NCBI GenBank assembly: GCA_027449865.1
Contig: DAIDKV010000185.1
Location: 1 to 43,618, forward strand
Source of the DNA: Planctomycetales bacterium
GTDB taxonomy: Bacteria; Planctomycetota; Planctomycetia; Isosphaerales; Isosphaeraceae
DNA length: 43,618 bases
Direction: 5' to 3'
This document shows, one piece after another, positions 18,528 through 21,301 of this stretch. A model generated the notes under the pieces. The model was not told the origin of the DNA. It worked only from the letters and a program-made list of their open reading frames with translations, and searched no databases. Position numbers and translations under genes: made by a program. The stretch's first letter is position 1, and the number at the start of each line of letters is the position of its first letter.

Positions 18528-19886
18528 TCATTCCCGCTCCATTCGCGAGACGGCCCCGACGAGCCCCTCCGGCACGTCCTCGCGCCCCTCGCTTATTGAA
18601 GGGCCCTGGCGCGATGGCGGAAGGCCATCGCCGTCGATCCCGCTCGGCACCCGGTCCGAGGCCACCGGCTTAACTAGCCCTGGAGCAGCCTGGCCCCGGC
18701 CCTGGAGGACCGGTCCGAATGGCCCCCCCGATTCGCTCAGGGCGGCCAGCGAATGGGCCCGGACCCACCCGCCTTCATCCAGGGGATCGGCGAGGAACCG
18801 GAGGACGAGTTCGCTCCATTCGAGCCCGACGTACAGGCCCTCGAGGGCCTCGGCGCTGGCTTCCGAGAGGCGGCCGTAGAGCTGGGGCTCGCGAATGAGC
18901 CGCACCACTTGCCGGGCGAGGTCGCGGGGGTCGGCGGCCCGGAATCGCAGGGAATCGACGTCGGGCCGCAGGCGGTCGACGAACGCCGGGTGGTCCGAGG
19001 CGATCAGCGGGCTCCGCGAGGCGAGGGCCTCGAAGATCGTATTCGGCAGGCCCTCGCTGTATTCGTGGCGGGAGGCGACGACCACGGCATCGCTCGTCCT
19101 CATCTCCGCAAGGACCTGCTCCGCCGGGATCACGCCGAGCAGGCGGACCGCACTCCCGACGCCGCGACGGCTCGCCAGCTCGGCCCAGGCATCGACATCG
19201 CCGGGCCCGGCGAGCGTCAATTCGAGGTCCACGCCAGCCTCGTTGGCGATCGAGACCCCCTCAATGCAATCTCCCACCCCCTTCGATTCGCTGAGCGCCC
19301 CCGCGAAGAGGAGCCGGAACGGCCGGTCCGGCGGCGGGGCTGCCTTGGCCTCGCCCTCCGGCCGAACCCGGCAGAATTCCCAGGGCACGATCTCCTCGGG
19401 CCCCAGGCCGAGCCGTGCCAGGGACATCGACGCCGAAAGGCTGTGGTTCGCGACACACGGCCGGAGACATCGCCGGAGCGCGCGGGCCAGCCGCCAGTTC
19501 CTCAGCCGAGTTCTCAGCCCCCCGCTCGTGAAGATGTCCGCGAACGAGGGCAGCGTGTGGACGCGCTTCCTCGCGGCCCATCTCAGCACGGCCCTGTTCG
19601 GCGTCCGGCAGATGAGGGCCTCCGGGGCGAGCCGGTCCAGCACCGGCCAGATCCGGCGCCGATCGTGGGCAAGATCGCACGGAATCCCGATCGAGCGCAA
19701 TCCCGGCCCAAGCTCCTCGTCGTGGGGCCGACGGCAGAGCGCGACCGACGTCACCTCGTGCCTTGGTGCCAGCGAGGCCACGAAGTCCACGCTATGCAGC
19801 TGGTCACGATAGGTCTCGGGGCCACCGGCCCGGAGACGGCGATAAACCTCCCCGAAATCCCCGTACTGAAACAGCACAATGCGCAT
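18528..19886 (-). CDS. GT4-type glycosyltransferase, group 1
   Basis: 452 residues from ATG at 19886 (MRIVLFQYGDFGEVYRRL). The frame opens 46 codons earlier, without family character. The N-terminal domain has a nucleotide-fold start and GGPETYRDQLHSVDFVASLA. The C-terminal GT-B domain has FRLLFAGALSESKGV, LTLAGPGDVDAWAEL and the nucleotide-sugar-binding SRHEYSEGLPNTIFEALAS (the E-x7-E motif). The last about 75 residues after FLADPLDEGG are low in complexity. Such enzymes add sugars to glycans or lipids of the envelope. It stands alone, with about 1.1 kb of gene-free sequence upstream. Confidence 0.9.
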   Translation of the reverse strand: MRIVLFQYGDFGEVYRRLRAGGPETYRDQLHSVDFVASLAPRHEVTSVALCRRPHDEELGPGLRSIGIPCDLAHDRRRIWPVLDRLAPEALICRTPNRAVLRWAARKRVHTLPSFADIFTSGGLRTRLRNWRLARALRRCLRPCVANHSLSASMSLARLGLGPEEIVPWEFCRVRPEGEAKAAPPPDRPFRLLFAGALSESKGVGDCIEGVSIANEAGVDLELTLAGPGDVDAWAELASRRGVGSAVRLLGVIPAEQVLAEMRTSDAVVVASRHEYSEGLPNTIFEALASRSPLIASDHPAFVDRLRPDVDSLRFRAADPRDLARQVVRLIREPQLYGRLSEASAEALEGLYVGLEWSELVLRFLADPLDEGGWVRAHSLAALSESGGPFGPVLQGRGQAAPGLVKPVASDRVPSGIDGDGLPPSRQGPSISEGREDVPEGLVGAVSRMERE

Positions 19887-20390
19887 CTTCGCACACCCTC
19901 GCAATGGTTCAAAAGGGCGAGAAACAGAACACGCCCGGCCATTGGACTCGATCTCGAAGTCAGCGGCGTGGACGGGTGCGCTTCGTCCATCGAAAGGCCA
20001 GTCAGCGGACGGGATCTGCGGCACACGCGGCCCTCGCGACCGCCCGACTCCGGGCCCTGATCGGCTCCGAACCAGAGCGATCCTCTACGCAGTCTGGTCC
20101 CGTCAACGCGAGATCAGTCCCCTGATTCGGCACACGCCGCGATCAAAATCATGCGATTCGCGATCCGTTGATAGCACCCTGACAAACATACCGCACTTAT
20201 TCAAGATCCGAGTCGAGAATGTTGTGCCCGAGAATCTTTCATGATGAAAAAAAGCATCAGGGAGAAAAGCGGACAAGGATCGATCTTTCGTGTTTTTCGC
20301 AGTCCGGCTCTCCGGCCGGCCCGGTCGGGTATGCCGTGATCCGGGGCGGAACTCGCGATCGCGATCTCAATCGAGGGCGCCCGAGGACGA
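19887..20390. other. Intergenic region before the MITE composite
   Basis: About 500 bp with no recognisable gene. It should hold the promoter of the glycosyltransferase. The part 20130-20290 is less GC-rich than its surroundings (for example around ATGATGAAAAAAAGCATC). The short frames crossing it have no family resemblance. Confidence 0.4.
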
Positions 20391-20400
20391 GCCTCATCGC

Positions 20401-20505
20401 CCCATAGGCGTTAACTTAAGGGCCAAATCTCCGGGAAATCGACGCCACGAGCGTTGAGATTCCAGGGGTTTTTCGGGAGTGCTGGCCCTTAAGTTAACGC
20501 CCAAG
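20401..20505. mobile_element. MITE-like element, copy 1
   Basis: A 105-bp block identical to 20627-20731. Its core (20407-20501, 95 bp) is bounded by perfect 19-bp terminal inverted repeats, GGCGTTAACTTAAGGGCCA. It has no coding capacity. The structure is that of a miniature inverted-repeat element that would need a transposase from elsewhere in the genome. Confidence 0.85.
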
Positions 20506-20509
20506 GGCA

Positions 20510-20575
20510 GGAGCCCCCTCCTACAAAATGGGACCGACTCCGCGGGCGTGAATGGTTTTTGTAGGAGCCGGCTCC
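20510..20575. repeat. REP-like inverted pair between the two MITE copies
   Basis: Arms at 20510-20528 and 20557-20575 are complementary at 17 of 19 positions (core CTCCTACAAAA / TTTTGTAGGAG). The right arm runs into a second hairpin, GCCGGCT-CC-AGCCGGC (20567-20582). The TGTAGGAGCCGGCTCC type resembles bacterial REP/REPIN elements. Confidence 0.75.
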
Positions 20576-20626
20576 AGCCGGCGATGATGGCGTTCGGATG
20601 AGCTGCGAGTGGATCGGGGGCAGGAG

Positions 20627-20731
20627 CCCATAGGCGTTAACTTAAGGGCCAAATCTCCGGGAAATCGACGCCACGAGCGTTGAGATTCCAGGGGTTTTTC
20701 GGGAGTGCTGGCCCTTAAGTTAACGCCCAAG
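20627..20731. mobile_element. MITE-like element, copy 2
   Basis: Identical over 105 bp and in the same orientation as copy 1. Inverted ends are at 20633-20651 and 20709-20727. A 13-bp direct repeat (GCCTCATCGCCCC) occurs left of copy 1 (20391-20403) and right of copy 2 (20731-20743), so the pair may have moved as one unit. Confidence 0.85.
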
Positions 20732-21000
20732 CCTCATCGCCCCCGGGCCTGCCGGGCCGAGGCCAGGATCGAGCTGTCCAGCCCGACGACCTCCGGCTTG
20801 ATCCGTGATGGCTCGACCCGATGGTCGTGGCCCGTAATGAGCCCTGTCAGAGACGGGGCACGAACGCGAAAATGGTTCGGACGGTGAAATGACGCGTTCC
20901 GATTCCAGCGGGCAGATTCCAGACGGGAGAGGAAAGCGCATCGTCCGACCGGCCCGGATGGCCGGAGTACAGCCGGGCCCGGCCGGACCGATTCAACGAA

Positions 21001-21180
21001 TCAGTTCTTCTTGCCTTTCTCGACGGTGGACTTCATCTGATCCATCATCCCGCCGAACTGCGAGGTGTCGGCCGGCTTGGTCAGAGCTTCCGCGGTGGGC
21101 GGCGGGGCCGTGCCATCGCCACAGCCAGGAACGGCGAAGGTCGAAAACAGGGCCACCGCGGCAACGGCCAGGCGCGTCAT
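21001..21180 (-). CDS. Small lipoprotein, 59 residues
   Basis: The ATG at 21180 gives a short signal with a lipobox (hydrophobic AVAAVALFSTF, then VPGC with Cys at residue 20). The mature part is Thr/Pro-rich, then KPADTSQFGGMMDQMKSTVE and a Lys-rich end. It matches the protein at 3831-4010 in length, Cys position and the Met-rich middle, so the two are probably paralogues. Unlike the other, no DUF1559 gene is beside it. The frame extends to 21285 but that part has no signal character. Function unknown. Confidence 0.65.
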   Translation of the reverse strand: MTRLAVAAVALFSTFAVPGCGDGTAPPPTAEALTKPADTSQFGGMMDQMKSTVEKGKKN

Positions 21181-21301
21181 CTGAATGGAGAGATCTCCTG
21201 AGGGAGGATTTGTTAAAGTAAAGGTCATACGTCCAAAAGTGAACGGGAAGTACGACCACGGCCTCGGAGGTCTTGCTCCGCTCACACGATCATCCCTGAA
21301 C

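Follow-up and report, generated by a model that had tools for sequence, protein, structure and literature searches.

A 329-bp unit in a planctomycete genome, consisting of two identical MITEs (E1 and E2) with a single BIME unit between them, is probably best explained by composite transposition, with both elements and the enclosed DNA moving together. The unit lies at 20403-20731 (tip to tip) of the window, i.e. the whole stretch of 43,618 nt that was analysed (contig DAIDKV010000185.1 of Planctomycetales bacterium, GCA_027449865.1), and is bordered by an exact 11-bp target-site duplication (TSD). The genome is a draft of 8.48 Mb in 278 contigs with a completeness of 99.39. The locus is very small and unusually legible, as the insertion into a REP and the gain of a new target site have both been kept as exact duplications. 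The site is intergenic and the unit encodes no protein.

Across the locus, the order is X-E-Y-BIME-Y-E-X, with X and Y standing for the outer and inner duplications. The maximal repeats are two direct copies of 105 bp that are 100% identical (20401-20505 and 20627-20731), as the first-pass annotation had described. Their length was corrected to 103 bp, placing E1 at 20403-20505 and E2 at 20629-20731, both in the same orientation on the plus strand. These tips were set from relatives with duplicated flanks, in which the duplication starts directly outside CAT...ATG. CCCATAGG, initially taken for the tip, was rejected, since the relatives assign the terminal C and G to the element. Each copy starts with CAT and ends with AAG. 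The perfect 19-bp inner inverted repeat GGCGTTAACTTAAGGGCCA occurs at four places in the window, so that the four inverted ends already reported show 0 mismatches, compared with 0 occurrences in 100 shuffles. E is near-palindromic and forms a single long hairpin when folded as single-stranded DNA (-31.6 kcal/mol, z -7.3). No Rfam family was found at the locus at its gathering score.

Immediately outside the pair, the direct repeat (A)GCCTCATCGCCCC is exact at 20390/20391-20403 and 20730/20731-20743. It had been read as a 13-bp duplication; the exact repeats do adjoin the pair, while the TSD proper is CCTCATCGCCC, 11 bp long (20392-20402 and 20732-20742), and reaches 13 bp only if matching tip bases are counted, because the additional matching base at either side, a G or a C, is the terminal base of the element itself. 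A second direct repeat, overlooked in the first-pass annotation, lies immediately inside the pair. Its maximal form GGGCAGGAGCCC is exact at 20505-20516 and 20618-20629, and the same tip rule reduces it to the 10-bp TSD GGCAGGAGCC, located to the right of E1 within REP2 (20506-20515) and to the left of E2 (20619-20628). Outer copies pair with each other at 11/11 positions and inner copies at 10/10, whereas a random pair of places in the window is identical at a rate of about 6e-6 (10-mers) or 2e-6 (11-mers). Neither E1 nor E2 alone is flanked by a TSD. Each TSD belongs to a pair of ends, and the outer repeats are therefore assigned to the pair as a whole. As in a composite transposon, a segment is enclosed by two copies of one element, with a TSD flanking the pair but neither of its members.

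The enclosed hairpin, previously called REP-like, is indeed a REP, and the BIME unit has at least 78 matches in the own genome, itself included (40 of 159 candidates were scored). In its usual form, seen at 29 loci, REP1 (GTAGGAGCCGGCTCCAGCCGGCGA) is followed by a spacer and an inverted REP2, e.g. GATCGGGGGCTGGAGCCCCCTCCTACA; as in BIMEs, the palindromes alternate in orientation and occur in many copies and in tandem arrays. In the window, REP1, which starts with GTAG, is intact (20561-20584, plus strand) and has many copies in the own genome, often in such arrays. REP2, on the minus strand, is split, with its left-hand part GGATCGGGGGCAGGAGCC before E2 (20611-20628) and its right-hand part GGCAGGAGCCCCCTCCTACAAAA after E1 (20506-20528). 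When the two halves are joined with one copy of GGCAGGAGCC (20611-20618 continuing through the TSD), they form GGATCGGGGGCAGGAGCCCCCTCCTACAAAA, i.e. a whole REP2 as found elsewhere in the genome, with 5 differences from an intact genomic REP2 over a 34-bp stretch. The midpoint of the 10-bp inner TSD coincides with that of the palindrome GGGGGCAGGAGCCCCC, at the axis of REP2. Since the inner TSD is exact and the joined inner ends restore the whole palindrome, E was first inserted at the REP2 axis. The distance between the inner repeats is 113 bp (20505 to 20618), which fits the period of a BIME array because 12 of the 14 REP1-REP1 spacings that contain a REP2 measure 104-125 bp (five of them 114 bp). 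No donor BIME carrying E was found in the assembly, the best other BIME match among those scored being 82% over 73 bp. A Y1-transposase gene (L286, G000:C33:29711-29962), one of six PF01797 hits, has REP1 on both sides and is likely a RAYT.

Based on these features, the locus probably arose in three steps. First, as the inner TSD shows, one E entered the REP2 axis within a BIME, duplicating GGCAGGAGCC. The 113-bp BIME unit with its E would then have been repeated in tandem, by array expansion or a REP circle, resulting in two identical, equally oriented E copies one BIME period apart. In the last step, most likely, a transposase acting in trans would have brought together the outermost tips (left in E1, right in E2), and E-BIME-E would have been cut and pasted as one unit into a new site, duplicating the 11 bp of CCTCATCGCCC. 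The right tip of both copies is CCCAAG, compared with CCTATG in several relatives. The identity of the copies, their shared orientation and this shared altered tip suggest that one copy gave rise to the other, as identical copies with a common altered tip most simply form one lineage.

From the inner 10-bp repeats, the enclosed REP unit can be seen to close on itself, as it would in a circle or a tandem array. It follows that the final DNA would be no different if a simple E insertion had recombined with a BIME circle or array bearing E. The earlier claim that the elements and the intervening DNA moved together is thereby only partly upheld: the outer repeats do belong to the pair, while recombination could also account for the structure. 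In the latter case, an E at CCTCATCGCCC with its 11-bp TSD and an E in a REP with its 10-bp TSD would have been merged by homologous recombination within E, either via a small E-carrying BIME circle or with an E-BIME-E array as the source of a conversion. The exact order X-E-Y...Y-E-X would be obtained, and both TSDs would become ordinary single-element TSDs. For ISRm22 in REPs, mixed direct repeats have been explained by recombination between IS copies (PMC1525189), and circular REP intermediates have been proposed as the source of REP arrays (PMC3733652). Nevertheless, we regard recombination as possible but rather unlikely. It requires two independent E insertions, yet the altered right tip is common to both copies and all 103 bp are identical (which gene conversion could explain); the exchange has to occur within 103 bp of homology, and no second E locus is present in the assembly. 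Composite transposition is preferred because a single E lineage suffices and no recombination within 103 bp is needed, even though searches for a donor, an empty site and a transposase in the own genome found none.

A more doubtful reading is that the locus is the fossil of a REP circle, i.e. an E-interrupted BIME excised as a small circle and captured by a chromosomal E or by transposition. If true, the two sets of TSDs would record a normally invisible intermediate. Replicative transposition, fusing a circular E-bearing BIME with the target into a cointegrate, is very unlikely. The anatomy fits, with the donor between two direct copies and the target TSD outside, but a circle of about 226 bp is required and the IS4 family, including IS231A, is described as cut-and-paste (PMC2266710). 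Most improbable of all is an artefact of short-read assembly in which E copies were misjoined or collapsed. The 278-contig draft, an exact 103-bp repeat at a 226-bp period and the repetitive BIME arrays speak for it. By reasoning, however, misjoining X-E-X and Y-E-Y cannot by itself bring the right and left halves of a single REP to the sides of one BIME unit, each next to an E, unless E-BIME-E was already contiguous. Real doubt is limited to copy number, as further tandem E-BIME units could be collapsed at this locus in such a fragmented draft.

Judging by its tips, its TSDs and the transposases of its relatives, E is an IS4-family, IS231-like MITE, since similar tips occur together with 9-12-bp TSDs and, in 4/5 full-length cases, with an IS4-type transposase. 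That the elements are MITEs, as first proposed, is thus supported. An IS4-type transposase, also suggested at that stage, is likely the mobiliser of E, given the IS231-like tips and the TSDs of 10 and 11 bp. According to PMC2266710 (Table 1), the IS231 subgroup of the IS4 family has ends of the type CAT-------AA--TAA--- and direct repeats of 10-12 bp, a range that includes both TSDs of the locus. The left tips of E fit this consensus at 8/8 positions and the right tips at 7/8, although the consensus is short and one further 8/8 match occurs in the window by chance.

The relatives were sampled as 47 non-redundant paired elements from other genomes (L140 onward); the set leaves out duplicates, the elements of the window itself, pairs that exceed 4 tip mismatches and pairs with a flank truncated at the end of a contig. 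In 16/47, a TSD of 9-13 bp is present that is exact (7 cases) or differs at one position, compared with 24/2162 mismatched flank pairs. A clean TSD is lacking in 31/47, several of which have inverted flanks. Such inverted rather than direct flanks are seen at six loci (L142, L155, L160, L161, L187 and L242), with 0-2 mismatches in 11; L242 fits both. They look as though the two halves of the palindromic target had changed places or been inverted. Elements bounded by facing tip pairs fall into two size classes, about 100-600 bp and 1.3-1.7 kb. Of the five pairs in the longer class, four (L161, L174, L186 and L206) hold a DDE_Tnp_1 / IS4-type transposase, whereas the fifth (L253) has no long ORF. 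The YREK motif, a hallmark of IS4 (PMC2266710), is found in 4/4 of these transposases, none of which is in this genus. L161 and L174 pass the NCBIfam IS4 cut-off, while L186 (93.7 of 115 bits) and the two L206 frames fall below it. Full-length relatives with a transposase, envisaged in the first-pass annotation, thus exist in other bacteria and were not found in the own genome.

No transposase with the tips of E was found among the 18 PF01609 hits of the own genome, which were read for matching tips or other TIRs, and no matching one in this genome or four congeners. A profile of three related transposases was found in 0/5 genomes of the genus; with no positive genome, this empty answer shows nothing. 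A mobilising transposase in the same genome is no defining requirement for a stranded MITE. Relatives of IS231 without a transposase are known as MIC231, and IS231A prefers targets resembling GGG(N)5CCC. One candidate E end beside a transposase (L039) was rejected, as its 114-aa frame matched 0 Pfam families and the other scanned ORF is an acyltransferase.

The search of the own genome found no E apart from the pair at this locus. Matches with an E-value of at most 0.001 occur in 4/45 genomes of the family, namely the own genome and the congeners G016, G018 and G019; the congener G017 has none. Several congener elements have variable ends, CCCATAGGCGTTAACTTAAGGGCC and ...CGCCTATGGG. The exact 19-mer end gave 0 matches in genome_contigs, and no match that would point to a horizontal route was found among 72,556 plasmid records. 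The tip CATNGGCGTTAACTTAAG occurs in at least 113 stretches of genome_contigs, including Brocadia, Algoriphagus, Anaerolineae and Maledivibacter among others, and with at most two mismatches in 16/392 genomes of the phylum. Its loci (L140-L282) are spread across many phyla, and in one Anaerolineae MAG (CALDFY records) it is found on many contigs, often in a 275-bp element.

Several parts of this structure have counterparts in known systems. E resembles the IS231 subgroup, described as cut-and-paste, in its tip consensus and in the TSD range of 10-12 bp, but it is 103 bp long, has no gene, and there is no transposase in this genome to classify; IS231 itself is reported almost exclusively from the Bacillus cereus group (PMC2266710). 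As described for class 1 integrons in Acinetobacter and for MITE-297 (PMC6382973, PMC10969869), two identical MITEs enclose DNA in the manner of a composite transposon. The cargo reported there consists of whole integrons or a 76-kb region, whereas in the present case a single BIME unit of 113 bp is carried and the inner TSD has been kept as well. ISRm22, an IS4-family element, is reported to insert at the axis of REP palindromy with GC pairs at the ends of its TSD, as E does in REP2; it differs in its 6-bp repeats, in being an insertion sequence rather than a MITE, and in having nine copies in its genome (PMC1525189). GTAG REPs have been reported from Planctomycetes among other phyla (PMC3733652). 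With GTAG REP/BIME systems that have a RAYT, the present genome shares the GTAG-starting REP1, the tandem arrays and the REP-flanked Y1-transposase gene, but the BIME unit of the locus serves as cargo and landing site and not as the mover of the composite. MITE-flanked composites and REP-targeting ISs are already in print, and the locus represents no new mechanism. No mention of the end sequence GCGTTAACTTAAG was found in the open-licence literature, and none of the titles or abstract openings retrieved from that literature describes a MITE-BIME-MITE unit. The locus connects REP palindromes, as landing sites, with an IS4/IS231-like family of ends present in many phyla, and it suggests that REP units could travel to new places on MITEs, independently of the transposase of the REPs themselves.

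The E elements of three congener loci (L033, L034 and L036) are interrupted close to a common central point; the intervening 134-274 bp do not belong to E and are hairpin-rich by eye. These split elements are located at L033:4742-4972, L034:4109-4475 and L036:4136 onward. A repeat present in many copies in G019 (84 matches) is related to the core of L036, which also occurs there without E ends. REP-like DNA thus lies inside E in the congeners, and E lies inside a REP at the present locus. If the REP-circle reading is true, the two findings together would mean that REPs have been carried by IS4-type MITEs, and such MITEs by REPs, more than once. In L033 and L034, the outer flanks belong to the GG...CC type and show no clean TSD. 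One other locus, L165, contains two complete elements; it was rejected as a second composite, its flanks being mismatched (outer 3/11, inner 4/10).

The left neighbour of the unit is a glycosyltransferase gene (18528-20024, minus strand), upstream of which E-BIME-E now apparently lies stranded, and the right neighbour is a short ORF (21001-21285, minus strand). Both occur in conserved order in G017 and G018, while the right flank was not found in G016 or G019. Between the aligned blocks, 1032 bp are present here, compared with 378 and 385 bp in G017 and G018, and in an empty-site comparison the orthologous intergenic DNA of these two genomes could not be aligned with the locus. The segment 19909-20941 of the window is about 650 bp longer than its counterparts in G017 and G018, and the composite makes up only about half of this excess.
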